A stretch of DNA of 64,000 nt from contig JANBQC010000024.1 in the NCBI GenBank assembly GCA_027576995.1, forward strand, positions 1-64,000, read 5' to 3'. A program made the position numbers and the translations under genes. The notes beneath the pieces are model-generated. The model was not told the DNA's origin, ran no database searches, and saw nothing but the letters and a program-made list of their open reading frames with translations. This stretch comes from Dimargaris cristalligena. Its lineage: Eukaryota > Kickxellomycota > Dimargaritomycetes > Dimargaritales > Dimargaritaceae. This document shows, piece by piece, positions 8,362 through 35,264 of the stretch (the first letter of the stretch is position 1; each line of letters opens with the position of its first letter).

Positions 8362-9678
8362 TTAGAGGGTTTTGGATTTAACCGATCGGGAATAGGTGTT
8401 GATGGCAAATTGTACGAACAGGTAGATCAGCGGAAGTAGATAGAGGACATTGACGTGTGCGGCAAATCGGGAACCCTCGGTGACCAGGCAGTTGGGTACG
8501 AATAAGTAACCGACGGCCATGAAAATGCCAAGTAGGAACTGAGTGATTTGCATGAATGTGATGTAAGGTTTGCCCGGGGGATGAAGACCGATGGTTGTGC
8601 AGAGATAGTAGAAGTACATGATGGTATGCACCAGGGAATTGAATACCACGAAGATCCAGATGGGAATGGAACGGAACTGAATGCCAGCCCACATGCAGAG
8701 AATAGCGCCCGAGTGGTGGTAGGTTTGCAGGGTTGACGAGCGACGACCTGTTCGCGGGAGTAAGCGGCGCCAACGGGAGACACAAGGTGAGAAGAAAGGA
8801 ATAAATGAGAGGTATTGGTTAGATGAGTGTACATTTTGCATGATTGGTGTTGGTAGCCAGCTACAGACGGCCTATTTGACCAAAATAGGTAACCGGGGAT
8901 ATACTATATCGAGCAAGCGCAGCCAATCAGGTCAGATCAAGAAGGGGGTGATGGTTGGTGGCGCACCCATTCACCGCCCCCCCTTCATTCATTCCGAGCA
9001 CTGTTCGTATAATTTCACTCGATTCGGAAAAATCGGGTGGTTAGAAGAAGACGAGCAACAGTAGCAGCAGTAAGCACATCGTTGTGCCATGGATATATAA
9101 ATGAATATATATATATATATATAGTCTCCAAACAAGTTACCTTTTAGGAGGATGATGATGGTGTCGATGATTTCGTAATACTTGGACAGGTAAAAGAGGT
9201 AGCCCCAGTAGTACAGCCCGGACCGCCAGAATTTTTCCTCGGTATCACATAGGACGCCGTGCCAGGAGTATTCGTTTTGGACGCGCTGGTGGAGGGTAGT
9301 GACGGCGTGGTAGAAAGTGACGGCCGAGTACACACAGAGGAGTAGGTTGTGAAGAACGACAAAGGTGGTGAAGGCCATTGACTGAGTCCAGTGGGGTTGT
9401 TTTGGAAGGGCAGTCTTGGCCGAGGCTGGCGTTATAGCAGTAGTAGTAGTGCCAACAGCCCCTTCGGCGGCCTTTCGGTACCGGGCCTGAACCCGGGACA
9501 GTCCCCCGGTGGGCTGTTGGGTGTTGATGTACTTGACGGTGGCGGCGTACACGATGGCGGTGAGGACGGGTGTTTTCCAGTGCATGGCCCAGGGGAAAAG
9601 ACTCGGCCAGGGTAGGGATTCGACGGGAATGGGCGGCGGCGGAGGGGCCATGGTCAGGTAGTGCAGGAAGTTCAGCAT
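8362..9678 (-). CDS. ELO-family fatty-acid elongase (3-ketoacyl-CoA synthase type)
   Basis: Two exons on the minus strand, 9141-9678 and 8362-8747, join as AAAG/GTAACT ... GAACAG/GT in phase 1 and give 307 residues. Start is the Met at 9678; a second Met nine residues later is an alternative. ELO enzymes condense malonyl-CoA with acyl-CoA in the ER membrane. The ELO core is clear: FWRSGLYYWGYLFYLSKYYE, IDTIIILLKG, then the histidine box LQTYHHSGA (residues 186-194), then FNSLVHTIMYFYYL and ITQFLLGIF, with several hydrophobic membrane segments. The usual HxxHH box reads Q-T-Y-H-H (187-191). From memory, Gln in the first position occurs in the Isochrysis C18 delta-9-type elongase, and the surrounding residues look similar. 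Upstream sequence (9680-9800) is purine-rich on the + strand, i.e. pyrimidine-rich on the coding strand. Substrate cannot be told from sequence. Confidence 0.92.
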
Positions 9679-11669
9679 GGCGAACGGAGCTGGGTGGGTG
9701 GGGGTGGGAGGAAGAGGGGGATTGGTGATAATGGTAATGTAGAGGAAATAGGCCGGACGGAAGAATAGGTGGAAGGAGAGGAGGGTAAATAAATGGTGGA
9801 TGAGGGAGGGAGGGGGTCCAAATAATGATATTATGAGAGAGATACCCTTAGGCTAGGAGCACGAAGAAAAAAGAACGGTAGATATATATCTATCAACAGG
9901 CACATCAACGCAGGGGTGAGATTAGGTGGGTAAATGGGAGGGAGACGTGGTGTATTTATATGGAAGAAATTCAAACCAGCTGTATAAGGTTTTACATAAT
10001 ATGTGTATGGATGAATATATGCGAGAATATCTTTTAACCAGTAATATTGGCTTCATCCAATGGATTTTGCGTTATACAGCCTGAATGAACTTCTCCCATA
10101 TTCTCTTGTATCCATCAGTAGGTTCTTAATCACGCATCAGTCAGTAGTGGTTTATTTAAATGACGATCCCTTTTTATAAGAAAGGGTTTCTCACTTCTCC
10201 TCCTAGTATAATATAATAGCCTATAATGATGAGCATCTCCCAGAAACGGGAGGTGAAGCACGGCCCCTTCTATATAATACCTTCTAGGTTAACTACGGAT
10301 TTATAAGGGGAGACTGCTAGGATTTTATTTCATTAGAAGGTTTAAGCCACCATTTTGTGCAACTAACCACACACAACAACCCTTCCTTTTCAGCTGGATT
10401 AAGGGAGGATTTTAGCTGGTATATAGAAAGGTAATATAATATCTACACTCTATGATGGAGATTTCCCGCCCACCGTTTATTTTATCCAACCCTGGCTACT
10501 AAGTTAACGCGTGGCCCTCCTATATTATTATAATATAGTAGGTATGCCCGTTTTCTTACTTATCTGGCTACCACAACCCACACGCACGGCGTGCCCTTGT
10601 CGAATTCTCCAATTATACTGGTTAGAACAGCAGTCAGGCCATTTATCTGGACAGTCCCCACCCAAGAGGGAAGAAGGGATTGGGTATGTGAAACACCAAC
10701 ATTATTAGATGGAGAGATACCCATTTGGGGGAAGAACAGGGTAATTAGTATGCGCACACGTCACATCGCTTAGTGGGCTGTTTTTTCCCCTTATGCAGCA
10801 TCGCATTTTTCCCATCCGGCGGCGGCGGTTGCACTATATATCATTATTCATTCTGCTTGACCTCCCCCCGGACCAACCAGTTCGCCCGATTGGGGCCGGT
10901 GGCAGAGAACCCCCCGCTACCAGGTAGGGTAGATCTCATTATAATGTACTCTAGAGTGGGAGAAGGAGAGCGAGCGAGAGAGAGAGAGAGAGTCACACGC
11001 CCAACTCTGCCTGGCCTGGCCCGGAAATACTACTTACTACTAATACTACACCACCTGCTTGCTTGCTATTCATAGGGCTACCAGCGAATGGCCTGATTAT
11101 GGGCCGAGCAAATCTCATTCGTGTGGCTGATAAATCGGCCCAGTCACCATCATATCCCTCTTCTAATCTAAATAATAGTCAATCAAGTGACTACTTCAAT
11201 CGTCCGTGAGTGGAAGAACCACTATCGTCCGATAATTCCAAAAGCGCCGATGGCATAACGGCGATGTCGGAAGGAAGCCCGAGGAAACAGGGGGTTGGAT
11301 AAGCTATAATATAAACCATTGGGAACCCCCCCTAGGGCTGCGTAGACAGGGGGGGGGATACATATGATACTGCTCGATGACCTATATCTCTCTCTCCTTT
11401 ATTCTGGCCATCTACAATGCCGGATATCATCAATCACACAGACATTTCTCAACTTATCCGCTGTGTGGCAGTACCAGGGAAATTATGATAAGCTGGTTCT
11501 GATATAACATATATTATATATAGGGGAACTATATTGGGGCTATGTATAATAGAGCCATTTTTCCCTATTCCTATCACTTCACTTGGATAAATTAGAGGGG
11601 TGGTAGATTTACACCGCCAGGGTGCCAAACCCAATGACCTCGGCAGGCGAAAAGATAATAAATATATTA

Positions 11670-16534: not shown

Positions 16535-19500
16535 ATGGCCGACGAAAAAAATGCCCTAAAGGAGCGGTCGAAGACGCGCATCACAGCAATAGGTAAGCCC
16601 TGAAACTCTCTCATTTCAGACCTAGCACTACCACCACCATGCGGCTCCTTCTTCTGTACTAGGTCCCTCCGCCCAGCACAGGCGTAGGGTTGGGTGGAAC
16701 TTCCGTCGTCTCGGCAGCGGTCCAGACTGGGCCTGTGGGCGGCGCTCGTGGATTCGCTTGGGTGATCCCCCCCCCCACTTGTTCCCAAAGCCCCGACTAC
16801 GGCGGGCATTGCTGCATGCTGCTCGAGCGTACGGTGGGCGCTGATTAACTTACTAGTTGCCGGGTACGAATCCCCCCCCCCTAAGGTCGTTTCAGCACAG
16901 AACCTTCCTTGCCTAAGGCCGACTTTGTTTGCTGATTTTGCTTCCTCTTTCCATTACCAACCACCCTTCACCCTATTCCGCTATTTATTTAAGAAAAATT
17001 GACTAATCATCATATTTGTATGACTATATATACATGGGAAATAGACTCCATCTTCGAGCCCAACATCTACCCGTCGGTCATCACCTTCCTACGCTGTGGC
17101 GGTACTCCCTTGGATGTGGTCAACTACCTGTCGAATAATTATGTGGGACTGGTCCCCATGTGTGAATTGCTAGCCGACGAATGGTGCACCACCCTGGGCC
17201 TGAACGGAACCCAGATCATTTACGATACCTTAAAATCGGTAATTTTGGAACGGTTTGACCCCGAACAATTCGATAAAAAAACCATGGGCTCATCGGTAAG
17301 TTGACTAACACTGGGTTGATTCTAAGTATATATATATATATATATATAAGTCTGTCCATGTCGGCTATCATTCAGCCGTCTATACCAATTCCCGGAAATA
17401 ATGAAAATGAGGCGGGCATTGGCATTATGGCATGGTGTCATTAAACCTACCACACCGTGGTCGTTGGGAGCATTATATTTATTACCTCTGTCTCTTATAT
17501 ATATATGTGTGTACACATAGTCGCCGCCGGATTGGCTAGGCCCAATGATTCAGCACCATATCTGGCGTTCGGTGATTTACGAGTTATCCGAACAGTACCC
17601 CAAGAGCGCATTCCTAAACTTCGCCATTCAGTCCATTTCCGCCGCGGGCTACCAATCGGAAATCACCAGTGCTACCACCGCCTCCAAATACTTTAACGTC
17701 TACAGCAATGTCCTACTCGATGCCATTAAGGACATTAAGGATGTCAATGAAAGTAATTTTCCCGAGAAATTCGAGGTATTCGAGGTAAGTGACGGGAGGG
17801 GGGGGTTCCCTTCCCTTGAGTCAGGGGAGGGGATGGGTTATTCAAAAATGGATTGTATATAAGCCCTGGCCTTCCATTGGTTTTGACTAGTATATAGCTT
17901 AGTTTATTTAACCGACACTTCCCAAAGAAGATGTAGGTCGTTGGAGGAATCGATTTTTAAGTTCCACGACCTTGCACTAGCCTAATCCTACCCTATGTTT
18001 TCCATTATCCTTTACAATACCCAATCCCTCCCTCATACACACACCCAATGTCACTACGCTGGCTTCAGAGAATCTGTGCCCAAAATGAGCACACTTACCT
18101 AATTGCCCAGGCCTTGCTTAACAAGCTGATTCAAGAGAATCCCGCGGAGAACTACCCGCTTAAGCGGGTGGTTAACGATCTTGGACAGATTACCGCTCAG
18201 AAGCACCAAAAGTACGTTACACCTAGTCTACGACATCATCGATTTGCAACGTTATACTCATCACTACCAACCTGTTCGATTTTAATAAGTTCAATGTACT
18301 TACACTTCTTACTACTCCCTCTTGTTTTGGTTACATTATCTCTGTAATATCAGCCCAACTCTCCTGGGCAATATGAATGTATTGCTGGCAGGGTTGCCTG
18401 TGTACAATAACGAAGTATCCACGGCTATCATGTCGATTAAGCAAAAACACGAGCTCTCCCCTGGTGATCTGGTCGCGGTAAGTTGACTGTCTATTCAGCT
18501 GTTCCTGGGTCTACTACCTATCGAACTGTTAGATTTCTAAACAATGTTACCTACATCATTCCGCATTCCCTCTTCCCTGCCTCCTAACTTCATATGGATG
18601 AAATTCAAACCAGCTGTATAAGGTTTTACAATATACGTGTATGGGCGAATATATGTGAGAATAGCTTTTAACCAGTAATATTGGCCTCATCCAATGGATT
18701 TTTCATTATACAGCCTGAATGAACTTCTCCCATATCCATTATTATCTTAATTACTACGATATATCTCGTTATGCTTTTGACCCTTGGCAATTTTCTTAAT
18801 ATATATATATATCCATATTCCTGATCTTTATTACATCTATCTAAATCTGTCCATATAGCTTTACAAATCCTACAAGGGCCCTACCCCTCCGTCCATCGAG
18901 TACCTCCGGGACATTGAAATCATTGAATTTCTCCTAGTGAGCGTATTCCAGCCCCCCTCCGATGCCGGTCGGAGTCACTTCGCCACCCATACCGTAGGTC
19001 TGCGCCCCGAAATCAAGGACAAGTACCTCTGGCTCCTGGGCCAAATTATCGGTTCGGCCCCGGCATTTTATCCATCCCCAACCGCCGGGGAGGGCAATGG
19101 TCATGACCATGGTCAACAATCAACCGCGCCCGATTCGGTTACTGCCACCGAAGCGACCTACCGCCAGTTGGTGGCTCTCGATAAACTACTCATTAGTAAA
19201 CCCACCGCCGCGGATCTGGCCCAGTTGACGGGGGTGATTCTGGATCAATATATCGAGTAAGTTTGGAATTATCCGTTGCCTTTGATACACCGGGGATTAT
19301 ATATATATATATATTAAAGGAGAGGGCGATGAGAGTCCTTTTACCAACCCTTATTTAACGACATGTATCCTCTATTGCTATTATTATTGGAATGCTGGCT
19401 GAATTGTTTATGGATCATAGCCCCTAAATCTCTAACGATAGTTCCATCTGCTATTTTTTTTATTGCTACCTCATTCTTTCTATTTCTATGTTTTGGGGGA

Positions 19501-21598
19501 CCCTTTAGTGTCCCGATCCTCGCGGCAGCCGTAATTATCTGGCTACGCCATGTCTTGCAGGATGATAATTATCATTACTACGAAACGTACTTCCGGCTCA
19601 CTGAGGCCCCGCTCCCGCATTTGCTCCTTGAAGAGGTAAGTCTGGCTTTGCCGGTAATTTGCCACTAGGTCGCCTTAGAGATGCTTACTTTACATGGTCA
19701 ACTATTATCAAGATATATATATATATATATATGGTATAACTGATATAACTGATATAACTATCATTTATCCGTTGGTTTTATTTACACTACTTCCCTCCAC
19801 ACATGGATAGATTGCCCACCGGCACCCCGGCCTTCAAGACCGCATCTTCAGTGCGTACCAAGAGAGCTTCACAGCGCGGATCAGTACCATCGGAGCTGAA
19901 CTAATGGTAAGTGACCGTGTTGAATTCCGTAGGGGGCCTCTTATTGAAATCACCTACCTAATGCCACAGTGACTGTGTTGACGTGTGCCCAAAGGGTTAC
20001 TGCTAATACTGCCGTGGGCTGTATTTTCCCACCCCCCTTCTCTTCGCTTCCCTCCCTTTGCTTTTGGAGAGAACCCCTTATCCCTGCGACATATCTATCC
20101 CCCTGTGGCATATGCAGCTTTGCTTCCCCCTTGTTTTGCCCGCAGCATGGCAATAATATCTTTTCCTCATTATCGTGCAAAATCCCCCCAATGCCAACCA
20201 TACTAACTCCCATATTCACTCTGTTATTCCATGGCCCGCCTACCGATGGACGGATCCTGTACATTCCATATGTGTATGTGTGTGGGTGGTCCATGCTGCC
20301 CATTCCTTCCTTGCTGTATTCCCTTTTCCCGCTCACGCCCGAAACTCCGACCAACTCCTATCTCTTACCGCCTGGTGACAAACCCCCTAAACAGACCGCC
20401 CTGCAAAAATCGGTCTTGGATCGAATGCTCAATTTGATGGCTATGGGCTACGCGTTACCCGTTCTTAACTACGTTAAGCGGCTGCAGGAGAAGATTGACG
20501 AAAGTCTGACGGTCCACTTTGTGCGCAAGGTAAGTAGAACTTGGGGCGTATACAGGTTGTATTTATTCCCACCGCCCTGCTTAGATATGTTAATATATAT
20601 ATATGTATATGGCGGGGAGCTCAGATGGTAGATCTGAATTAAGTCGATATGGGAGTAGTTCAACCAGGCTGTATAACGAAAAGTCCATTTGGGAGAAGTT
20701 CAACCAGGCTGCTTAACGAAAAATCCATTAGACCGGGTCACTATTACTGGTTAAAATGATTTCACCCACATACTCTCACATACACGAATCATGTAAAACC
20801 TTATACAGCTGGGCTGAATTTCACCCATATGTTGTAGTGGGGGGTGCCATTTGACTAACTTTTTGACCCATGGCCCGACTGCTTTTATTCTGATTTTTAC
20901 GGTTTATACCACTCCACTCCCCTCCCCCCACCCCTTGTACTACTAGGTTTTGGACATGATAGCGGTACCTTATTCCAAACGGGTCATCAGCATACTATTG
21001 GAAATAGCGGCACCGGTCGTGAATACTATCATCGACGATCAGGACTACCACTTGGCGTTTTCGCGGTTAATCGGTAAGTGTAGGCATGCACTGCCATAAT
21101 AGTTCACTTCTTTATTTATTCGATACACCGAAGGATTGGTCTTCCACTTTGCACAGTGATATATATATATATATATTATTTCTTATATTTATTTTCGTAG
21201 CATTCGTGCTTAATATATTAATTCACCATCCTCCCTCTCCACTTTTTTTTACAGCTTGGCCCGAGCCAAGGAGCTTTTATTGGTGGGTGGGGGGATTACA
21301 GTCGTCCGCAATCTAATGCGTATCGTGGGCTATATTCCTGTTCGCCACTGTATTGGGGGTCCATACGCTTCCCGAAAGAATGGCTGATTTTGGCGACCCT
21401 AATTTCTCACACCGCTTGCCCATTTTATGATTTACAAAAACTTATTATTATTGGGTTTTTCCCTCCCGCCACCATTAAGATGACCTAATCGACAGCCCGG
21501 AAGACGTTCTTCAACCCGGCGAAACGCTATCCCCGGACACCGTAACCCTGCTTACATCTATGGAAGAAGAACTACCCGCCAACTCGGCTTTTAGTTAA
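16535..21598 (+). CDS. NELF-C/D (TH1) subunit of the negative elongation factor
   Basis: Eleven exons: 16535-16592, 17045-17295, 17521-17784, 18069-18211, 18354-18477, 18859-19256, 19509-19635, 19811-19906, 20395-20529, 20947-21073, 21480-21598. All junctions are GT-AG and in phase; the product is 613 residues (human NELF-C/D about 590). NELF-C/D helps hold RNA polymerase II at promoter-proximal pauses. Recognised blocks, compared from memory with the human protein, are IFEPNIYPSVITFLRCGGTP, PPDWLGPMIQHHIWRSVIYE, SISAAGYQSEITSATTASKY, NEHTYLIAQALL, YFRLTEAPLPHLLLEE, KSVLDRMLNLMAMGYALPVL and VLDMIAVPYSKRVISILLEI. They occur in family order, so the gene looks intact. Two introns carry MITE copies. 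The first exon (19 codons) and the last are least conserved; an alternative 3' exon follows the AG near 21254. NELF is known from animals and some protists and is missing from yeasts. Confidence 0.93.
17327..17348. repeat. (TA)11 microsatellite in NELF-C/D intron 2
   Basis: An uninterrupted TA dinucleotide run 32 bases downstream of the 5' splice site. Similar runs lie in other introns of this gene (near 18800, 19303, 19713 and 21160). Confidence 0.8.
18595..18732 (+). mobile_element. MITE copy 2 (138 bp) in NELF-C/D intron 5
   Basis: Flanked by TA (18593-18594 and 18733-18734). Starts TGGATGAAATTCAAACCAGC and ends GAATGAACTTCTCCCA. Nearly identical to copy 1 in length and sequence, suggesting recent or conserved amplification. 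It makes up more than a third of the 381-nt intron and leaves both splice sites intact. Confidence 0.87.
20650..20827 (-). mobile_element. MITE copy 3 (178 bp) with duplicated end, in NELF-C/D intron 9
   Basis: Inverted relative to copies 1 and 2 and flanked by TA (20648-20649 and 20828-20829). Its first about 40 bases (GGGAGTAGTTCAACCAGGCT and on) are repeated directly at about 20690 (GGGAGAAGTTCAACCAGGCT), so one terminal repeat is doubled. The other end carries CTTATACAGCTGGGCTGAAT. Lies within the 417-nt intron 20530-20946. Confidence 0.82.
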
Positions 21599-32521: not shown

Positions 32522-34106
32522 TGTATTAGAACGCCAGTGGAAGTCCGAATGCCAATGGGCTACAAGTTATATTATTTTGAAGGGGAGGGAGGAGAGGGGG
32601 ACAAAGGGAATCGCGAACCGACTATCGAATTCGAAACAAGCCGATGGTCAACTACAGCGGTTTGCAAATGTAGCCATGTAATAGGACCTAACTAACTCCC
32701 GAATGCCTCCAATCCCTCTCCCCCACTTGGACAAAGAACGCGACACGGAGGAGCTATACAGGCTTAAAGGTGTGTTAAGGAGTGGTGGGAGTATGAATAT
32801 GGGGAGTACAAGAAAGAAAAACCCCCACGAGGGAGAATATGGCCAATGGTAATTGTCCATCCCTCCACCAACTGTGAATGTAACACAGCCAAGGTAGGTG
32901 GGCCAGTCGCTGTAGCGCCGCGATTCGGAGACGATTGATCTGGGAATTAACTCGACGAAGACTCTTCCTTTACTATTCTTCTCAAACAACCTTGCCAAGC
33001 CGGAGACTCAAGGGCCTGGCCAATACTTTCTTCCAGGGTTTTTTCTCTCCCGGAGGATAGTTTACCCTGGGTACATTTAGGAATATTCAAGTCTGTGGGG
33101 ACTTGCTGTTTTTGGCTGAGATGCGTACATTAAGTCTACAGCAGTGACGCTCTGCGGTCTATATGCATTGCAAATGGGGCTTGTAATATTTGGTTCAATG
33201 AGGTAGCTGGTTTGCGACCTGTGCCCATCGTAATTGAGGTATTATCCCGACTTCCCACTCCAAGATTTAGGCATGGCAAGAGTATCGCTGGGCAGGCACT
33301 TCGTATGGTGCCTTGCAACCTAGCTAAGTGAATTACAGACCAAGAGATAATACAGGATAAGGTGCCCCAGCCCACCCGACCCCCCTTTTCCCATTTTAGT
33401 TGCATCCTATAAATTTAATCCACTCCCATGGTGTCTACGGCGGGGGGCTGCAGTGGAGCAAAATGGTAGAATGGATAATCAGGTCCTGCGACCTTGGCTT
33501 GGTTACACAATGCCGGTGCCCCGGCGGAGTGCGGGTATTAGCCTCCCCCTATCCCCCATCACCATCCTTCCCCCCAATTCCCTACCCCCCTGTAGGTAGG
33601 TCGGCCAATTATGGCAATGACAAACTTGCACGGGGCTCCATTTTAACAGTGGAATGGGTTGGTGCAGGTAAGGGGGGAGGGTACCAAAAGACATTGCTAC
33701 TCGCGGTTTACTACTACCATAGTCAGCAATGGCCAATAACCACTTAGATTAGGTCATCAATGCGAATTATGGAGGTTTCACAATACCCCGTTTGGGAGGG
33801 ACCGGGGACCCACCTTCATTAAACTATTGAAGAGGGTAGAACAAAATAGGAATACTGTAATATCTATGGAGGCGACAAAGTACAAGTGGAGGTGTGAAAT
33901 AGGTATAGATATACTCACCTACGCCGCTCCCTCTCTCTCTCTCTATCCGCCCCCCACCCACCCTCTCACTCCATAATTCTCTGTATTAAATGTTGACTGC
34001 CCTCCAAAACTTGCTAGACGGTTATAATTTCACATTCTTCTATTATTATTCAACTTCCATCCGCCCCCACCTCTCACTTGACAACCATAACTTGCTATTC
34101 ACCATT
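32522..34106. other. Intergenic with ambiguous open frames
   Basis: On the minus strand 32947-33129 (ending REKTLEESIGQALESPAWQG...ESSSS) and overlapping frames at 33130-33405 have coding-like composition. They contradict each other and cannot be joined by a normal intron. The last 180 bases are pyrimidine-rich and belong to the next gene's promoter. Confidence 0.4.
33927..33966 (+). promoter_or_regulatory. CT-rich tract before secreted paralogue 1
   Basis: An almost pure pyrimidine run (CT repeats then C-rich) about 140-180 bases upstream of the Met at 34107. Comparable coding-strand pyrimidine tracts precede several genes here, and such tracts are a known core-promoter feature of many fungi. 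Confidence 0.45.
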
Positions 34107-35264
34107 ATGTACTACCGTATTGCACTGTGGAGTATACTGGCTGCTGGGGTGGTTGCTGCTAATCCGGAGCTGAACGACTCCACTCCGTTGACCACCCTTA
34201 CCCGACGCTCGACCAACTCACCTATGACTAGTGGTGCACACGCAGCCGCCCTCGTTCGGCGCTCACCGGCTTTCTGGAACAGGTCCTCGAATCCCAATTC
34301 GGAAATGACGGGCGAAGAATCGACCGACCCGGCCAACAATTCCAGTGAGCCCTCCAATCATCCCCCTAAATTCATGAGTGCTGTAGGCCTCGGCAAAGTA
34401 TATAGTCAATTCCATGACCCCGAACGAAAACATTTTATTCGGCGGTGGAAGAACAAATCCAAGCCCACCGAAGATACCTTCCAATCTGAGCCCAATGCCT
34501 TAAATGAACCGAGCACCGGGCCATTTGGGTCGGGCCAACAAGTTTTGGGTAACCCGCTTTTACTGGCTACCGGATATACACCATCGCCATCGAACGAAGA
34601 CATAAGCGGGGACAAAGACCATGAGAACCTCTCCAATATCGATGACAATGACACTACAGACTATGGCCATCAGAGTATGGGTGGTGGCTCCTCGGCGCCG
34701 CGTACCTCGGGTTATACGTACCTACCCACTGATAAGGAAGCTCCTCAAGACCCAGGATATTCTATTTCTGATTCTACCTACCCCAATATCTACTTGAACC
34801 AAAAGGGAGAGCCTATCGAAAATGGCGTTCGCATGCATAGTGAAACAGCTCAGGACGCCGATAAGAACCAACGTGCCAAACAATGGTATGATGGTATAAG
34901 CTACATTAAAGTAAAGGATTCGGAGCCGTCGGATACGGGGGAGAACGAATCATTGTCGCCATTGATTAATGGTAGTAGGGCTCCCGCCGATAAATTGGCT
35001 GAAGACGATCGCAATTATGATAGTGATGATGATGACGACGACGGCGATAATGACCTTGCACCCTTGAAAAACTACAGTGACGGATACAATAAAAGCCCTA
35101 CCTTGCTTTTATCACCAGTAGACAACATTCCCGGTGCCCACCAATTAGTTGGGGCTTTACCTTTACCCTCCCAGATGGAATCATCGGACAATAATGACGA
35201 AGCCGCCCCAACCGAACGTGCGAGGAAGAATTGGTGGGAACTCTCCACCTCTGAAAATAATTAA
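34107..35264 (+). CDS. Secreted acidic disordered protein, paralogue 1 of 3
   Basis: Intronless, 385 residues. The Met at 34107 is chosen because it aligns with the paralogues (MYYRIALWSILAAGVVAANP); the frame is open further upstream but reads through leader sequence. Signal peptide about 1-18, then dibasic sites RR at 33-34 (TLTRRST) and 51-52 (LVRRSP), fitting Kex2-type processing. The rest is low in hydrophobics, rich in Ser, Asn, Asp, Pro and Thr, with a run of six Asp near 310 and no cysteine. It is the most diverged of the three tandem copies. No known domain. A cell-wall, spore-coat or host-interaction role is possible but unsupported. Confidence 0.85.
   Translation: MYYRIALWSILAAGVVAANPELNDSTPLTTLTRRSTNSPMTSGAHAAALVRRSPAFWNRSSNPNSEMTGEESTDPANNSSEPSNHPPKFMSAVGLGKVYSQFHDPERKHFIRRWKNKSKPTEDTFQSEPNALNEPSTGPFGSGQQVLGNPLLLATGYTPSPSNEDISGDKDHENLSNIDDNDTTDYGHQSMGGGSSAPRTSGYTYLPTDKEAPQDPGYSISDSTYPNIYLNQKGEPIENGVRMHSETAQDADKNQRAKQWYDGISYIKVKDSEPSDTGENESLSPLINGSRAPADKLAEDDRNYDSDDDDDDGDNDLAPLKNYSDGYNKSPTLLLSPVDNIPGAHQLVGALPLPSQMESSDNNDEAAPTERARKNWWELSTSENN

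Follow-up and report, generated by a model that had tools for sequence, protein, structure and literature searches.

In animals, RNA polymerase pauses close to gene starts under the action of NELF, a complex whose subunits include NELF-A, NELF-B and NELF-C/D. Knowledge of transcription in fungi comes mostly from yeasts. In their account of NELF evolution, Chivu et al. (PMC11482795) describe NELF-B and NELF-C/D as present widely among eukaryotes and secondarily lost in two model yeasts. They also report that some unicellular eukaryotes have apparent homologues of NELF-A, and place the HDAg-like domain in animals and Capsaspora only. A passage of a 2021 paper (PMC8524862) presents fungi as being without NELF homologues.

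The DNA analysed here, called the window, is a stretch of 64,000 nucleotides (contig JANBQC010000024.1, positions 1 to 64,000, forward strand) from Dimargaris cristalligena, an early-diverging mycoparasitic fungus that the NCBI taxonomy places in Kickxellomycota. An earlier reading of this DNA, made from the sequence only and without knowledge of its source, had described an eleven-exon NELF-C/D gene of 613 residues and had supposed that the host might be an early-diverging fungus, which proved right. We rebuilt the gene from the window as 11 exons (16535-21598, +) that join in frame to give 613 codons and a stop:

16535..16592, + strand, NELF-C/D exon 1 with the start codon; N-terminus similar to Dispira orthologues
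17045..17295, + strand, NELF-C/D exon 2; TH1 profile positions 46-127 in the genome search
17521..17784, + strand, NELF-C/D exon 3; TH1 profile positions 134-212, E 5.0e-22, in the genome search
18069..18211, + strand, NELF-C/D exon 4; NCBI model P0001 lacks the initial 14 codons of this exon, EHTY included
18354..18477, + strand, NELF-C/D exon 5; in-frame join, TH1 match of the spliced protein
18859..19256, + strand, NELF-C/D exon 6; in-frame join, TH1 match of the spliced protein
19509..19635, + strand, NELF-C/D exon 7; in-frame join, TH1 match of the spliced protein
19811..19906, + strand, NELF-C/D exon 8; in-frame join, TH1 match of the spliced protein
20395..20529, + strand, NELF-C/D exon 9; TH1 profile positions 482-529 in the genome search
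20947..21073, + strand, NELF-C/D exon 10; in-frame join, TH1 match of the spliced protein
21480..21598, + strand, NELF-C/D exon 11 with the stop codon, outside the TH1 match; C-terminus as in P0001 and similar to Dispira

The ten introns, of 142-488 bases, are all GT-AG, nine of them starting with GTAAG, and the G+C content of the gene is 51% in exons versus 43% in introns. Both ends of the protein are backed by Dispira orthologues ('MADP' at the start and 'ELPGNTAF' near the end). An extra exon of 18 bases (21255-21272) would also keep the frame but is absent from the NCBI model and from Dispira simplex, and was rejected. The in-frame join and the ten GT-AG introns bear out the eleven-exon, 613-residue model; we consider the predicted gene confirmed as real and the model correct.

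Searched with the Pfam TH1 profile (PF04858), the check that the sequence-only reading had suggested for its collinear, full-length NELF-C/D, the 613-aa protein gives a single match in which residues 4-552 correspond to positions 32-548 of the 579 in the profile, with E 2.1e-93 and 314.4 bits against a curated cut-off of 24. Collinearity over most of the profile is thereby upheld. Among solved structures, all 8 distinct chains found at E 0.001 are NELF-C/D, which we take to be the human protein (best E 1.6e-64, 222 bits). When the entire genome (27.1 Mb in 779 contigs, the window's own contig having 101,530 bases) was searched in six frames with the TH1 profile, three matches came up at E 0.001, each of them an exon of the gene in the window. 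For this predicted protein, chance is excluded as an explanation of the TH1 match.

The NELF-C/D of D. cristalligena is already listed at NCBI, as 'TH1 protein', in a model (P0001) that is faulty: its N-terminus is different and 14 residues are missing at the start of exon 4, the motif EHTY among them. Across 12 rows, this motif is kept in the window model and in 9 of the 11 others (EHTY in eight, EYTY in Basidiobolus); the rows that lack it are P0001 itself and a partial protein from D. xerosporica. As a prediction, the eleven-exon model is superior to the database entry.

In a search of public proteins, 8000 candidates were scored, picked by shared words and hence no census of fungi, and 11 of them matched. 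Five are from Dimargaritales (D. cristalligena, D. xerosporica, two Dispira and Tieghemiomyces), five from Actinomortierella and Haplosporangium, which we place as Mortierella-type fungi and whose proteins already carry the database name NELF-C/D, and one from Basidiobolus ranarum. The best match is 'TH1 protein [Dimargaris cristalligena]', with one 14-residue gap and 0 mismatches over the aligned part, and the closest protein from another species is that of Dispira simplex (714 bits, 53% identity). Identity of the window protein is 52-55% to other Dimargaritales and 32-38% to Basidiobolus and the Mortierella types. We also built the TH1 phylogeny that had been proposed, as a maximum-likelihood tree of 12 rows, all fungal: the six Dimargaritales rows stand apart with support of 100/100, and the window protein sits inside them with its NCBI twin. 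With predicted relatives in Basidiobolus and in Mortierella-type fungi, retention of NELF-C/D is common to more than D. cristalligena.

These relatives bear on where the gene came from. The published D. cristalligena genome is part of a single-cell project on obligate mycoparasites, and its source was grown together with a host (PMC6784888); the tree has no animal or amoeba row. Both points leave some room for contamination from an animal, an amoeba or the host fungus, or for horizontal transfer. We hold such an origin extremely unlikely because the closest proteins belong to separate Dimargaritales species, with Dispira simplex scoring far higher than the solved animal-type NELF-C/D (714 versus 222 bits). 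The D. cristalligena protein at NCBI, which shows no mismatch wherever it aligns, speaks against it as well, as does the filtering out of contaminant reads and contigs reported in the genome paper (PMC6784888). That the gene is a functionless, decaying relic is also very improbable, considering a frame open through 11 exons, regular splice sites, the identities kept with Dimargaritales and with the more distant fungi, and the presence of partner genes for NELF-A and NELF-B in the genome.

A genome search for NELF-A, NELF-B and NELF-E had been suggested together with the NELF-C/D claim; it yielded the first two, while NELF-E was not found with probes run without a positive control. The NELF-B gene (contig C153, 434-3510, +) is complete, with 7 exons and 643 aa. 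Its protein matches COBRA1 (PF06209) at E 7.9e-50 and 170.2 bits against a cut-off of 22, over positions 2-346 of 348, and all 6 solved chains found at E 0.001 are NELF-B (best E 1.8e-43).

The NELF-A gene (contig C218, 30028-26611, -; 5 exons, 641 aa) would be missed by a family search alone, since the first such search of the genome gave 0 matches at E 0.001; at E 10 there was one match (E 0.153), which is one exon of this gene. A first splice, with the frame broken after exon 3, was discarded; with a different exon 4 acceptor the frame stays open and agrees at that place with the NCBI orthologue P0012, named 'HDAg domain-containing' in UniRef. The spliced protein scores 32.5 bits with NELF-A_N (PF23553), whose cut-off is 27, over positions 19-120 of 146. 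Used as one sequence against solved structures at E 1, it found seven chains, three of them NELF-A (best E 2.6e-5) and the other four at E 0.048-0.083; a fungal profile of two sequences reached solved NELF-A at E 6.6e-10.

The NELF-A proteins of Dimargaris and Tieghemiomyces were further compared by local alignment, with 2000 shuffles, to a hand-typed human NELF-A sequence, five positions of which were checked. In neither fungus did any of the 2000 shuffles score as high as the N-domain or as the C-terminus. Taken alone in HMMER searches of structure chains, the C-terminus is weak (10.3 bits, i-E 1.7; 3.6 bits, i-E 230 with the two-sequence profile). The HDAg-like middle matches weakly, 25 of 2000 shuffles scoring as high in Dimargaris and 44 of 2000 in Tieghemiomyces, and the match is collinear around 'KMLDIDE' / 'KLLDISE'. 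Orthology of the predicted NELF-A is firm through the N-domain, with help from the collinear C-terminus, while the putative HDAg-like region is suggestive only. A structure model of Tieghemiomyces NELF-A, made from two sequences, was poor (mean pLDDT 49.2, pTM 0.24, 394 of 636 residues under 50). Public searches, again on candidates picked by shared words and not a census, gave two proteins, from D. cristalligena and Tieghemiomyces, among 4381 candidates with NELF-A residues 1-340 and the same two among 7999 scored with the two-sequence profile, so that no NELF-A from beyond Dimargaritales was found among these candidates.

For NELF-E, a hand-typed probe of 120 residues containing the RRM plus tail found 11 matches in the genome at E 1, of which four also pass E 0.001. 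All of them end by query residue 88, leaving the tail uncovered. We judged these matches by eye as other RRM proteins, with frames read at 10 of the 11 loci and the eleventh in the same frame as locus L010; presumably they are of the Nam8/TIA, Nrd1, Hsh49, Prp24, poly(A)-binding, RBM22, Yra1, SR and Pumilio types, with a glycine-rich one. A hand-typed N-terminal NELF-E probe gave 0 matches in the genome at E 10, and the HEXIM family profile gave 0 both in the Dimargaris genome and in 14 control genomes. Spt4, of DSIF, is encoded in the genome (E 1.1e-21).

Three NELF genes with family matches and a gene for Spt4 are the observed basis of the following proposal, to which we give a probability of about 0.72: a vertically inherited NELF-C/D would pair with NELF-A and NELF-B in a NELF that slows early elongation, perhaps without NELF-E. 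The products of the window gene, C218 and C153 would assemble into the complex, which together with DSIF would bind RNA polymerase II shortly after initiation, and early elongation of the bound polymerase would be slowed until release by a Cdk9-type kinase. Such a checkpoint would probably be modest, proto-pause-like and weaker than the animal pause. Assembly, polymerase binding and pausing in Dimargaris are steps that we infer from the genes.

Against the proposal we count that NELF-E and HEXIM were not found in searches without a working positive control, together with the weak HDAg-like match and the weakness of the C-terminus taken alone in the structure-chain searches; according to Chivu et al. 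(PMC11482795), Pol II binding and pausing depend critically on the HDAg-like domain of NELF-A. It is conceivable, if unlikely, that the subunits were retained for some purpose other than pausing, for instance premature termination, handling of the cap or 3' end of transcripts, or a cytoplasmic role, with no Pol II pause in this fungus. The undetected NELF-E and the weak HDAg-like region would suit such a task, and cytoplasmic NELFB is reported as essential in signalling independently of Pol II pausing (PMC10591015). Retention of three subunits of one animal complex together fits the function of a complex instead, and makes a working complex more likely than a single subunit recruited by itself. 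The sequence-only reading had left a choice between an ancestral pausing complex kept and another use of NELF-C/D; the genes for NELF-A and NELF-B tip this choice towards the kept complex, whose function is a predicted one.

As a find, the NELF-C/D gene by itself is no discovery, being already 'TH1 protein' at NCBI, with NELF-B and NELF-C/D in print as widespread. The sequence-only reading stands as to NELF-C/D, its intact frame and the early-diverging fungal host, and falls short as to novelty (PMC11482795); regulated pausing in this fungus would be a prediction. The EukProt data used by Chivu et al. include D. cristalligena proteins, as source tags indicate, and their supplementary tables may list its NELF. 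The open-access PMC literature gave us no paper that describes NELF-A, NELF-B and NELF-C/D together in a fungus, and no title on fungal NELF genes in a search on NELF in early-diverging fungal groups; the main text of a paper on gene loss in fungi (PMC10406608) does not contain 'NELF'. In PMC9476466, 'NELF' occurs once, as an abbreviation where the text deals with gliotoxin.

The predicted NELF gene set of Dimargaris goes against the absence of NELF in fungi as printed in that passage of PMC8524862. Its NELF-A calls into question the restriction of HDAg-type NELF-A to animals and Capsaspora given in PMC11482795 and does not overturn it, because the fungal HDAg-like match is weak. Taken jointly, the data would fit an animal-style NELF, composed of B, C/D and a NELF-A that has an N-domain, an HDAg-like region and a C-terminal domain, which the last ancestor shared by animals and fungi already possessed and which some early-diverging fungi still have. 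HDAg-type NELF-A would then be older than the animal line, fungi would have lost regulated early elongation late and piecemeal, and in fungal NELF-A the HDAg-like region would be followed by a long charged helix, in a place where the sequence of the human protein is different. We see the odds of this scenario as even. The gene set would help to date the loss of NELF within fungi, and a fungus with NELF-A, NELF-B and NELF-C/D and no NELF-E detected would offer a natural way to test which of the subunits are enough for a pause.

Compared with known systems, the window protein is closest to the other non-Dikarya NELF-C/D, those of Dispira, Tieghemiomyces, D. xerosporica, Basidiobolus, Actinomortierella and Haplosporangium: it belongs to the same family at 32-56% identity, the divergence is ordinary and nothing more, and it is simply the D. 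cristalligena member. With animal NELF-C/D (TH1, PF04858; NELFCD) it shares the same order over profile positions 32-548 of 579 and a significant match to solved chains, and differs in that fungal residues 321-406, a stretch that includes low-complexity sequence, are left unaligned by phmmer and in that the NELF-E partner was not found in the Dimargaris genome with hand-typed probes lacking a positive control. Relative to the core NELF of unicellular eukaryotes, B plus C/D as outlined in PMC11482795, Dimargaris has both core subunits and adds to them a predicted NELF-A that has the Pfam N-terminal domain and resembles human NELF-A at its C-terminus.

The deposited NELF-C/D of D. cristalligena (P0001, an NCBI 'TH1 protein' entry) differs at its N-terminus from the eleven-exon model of the window, and in its gene model exon 4 lacks its opening 14 codons (18069-18110). 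The conserved EHTY motif is present in the window model. Among the Mortierella-type fungi, Actinomortierella ambigua and A. wolfii each have two NELF-C/D entries (P0006/P0011 and P0007/P0010, respectively). Since the A. wolfii pair is almost identical in the tree, these doubled entries may stem from different strains or alternative models instead of being paralogues.

Other genes in the same window include three open frames on the forward strand, each with a signal-peptide-like stretch, recognized by eye, close to its start:

Open frames of the putative secreted family
33990-35261, + strand, open frame 1, 424 aa
37627-38853, + strand, open frame 2, 409 aa
41770-42876, + strand, open frame 3, 369 aa

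A Pfam search gave no match for any of the three. The second and third frames share 35% identity across 208 residues (E 1.65e-26), and the first shows no clear kinship to either (best E 0.075). The three look like a small secreted-protein family. Separately, a frame on the reverse strand (8992-9852) matches ELO, the GNS1/SUR4 fatty acid elongase family (E 5.2e-14).

The deposited D. cristalligena NELF-A (P0012) carries, after position 78, 23 additional residues that its Tieghemiomyces orthologue (P0013) lacks, and which we read as a putative part of the first NELF-A intron. A single residue difference (K for R) from the genome analysed here, where the gene lies in the region C218:23000-31500, was also spotted by eye, and therefore the two may represent different assemblies or alleles. 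The structure model of P0013, of low overall confidence, predicts a long charged helix at residues 300-383, directly after 'MLDLDEAQ', with a block pLDDT of 71-90 over 301-370. At the position of this predicted fungal helix, human NELF-A has a different sequence.
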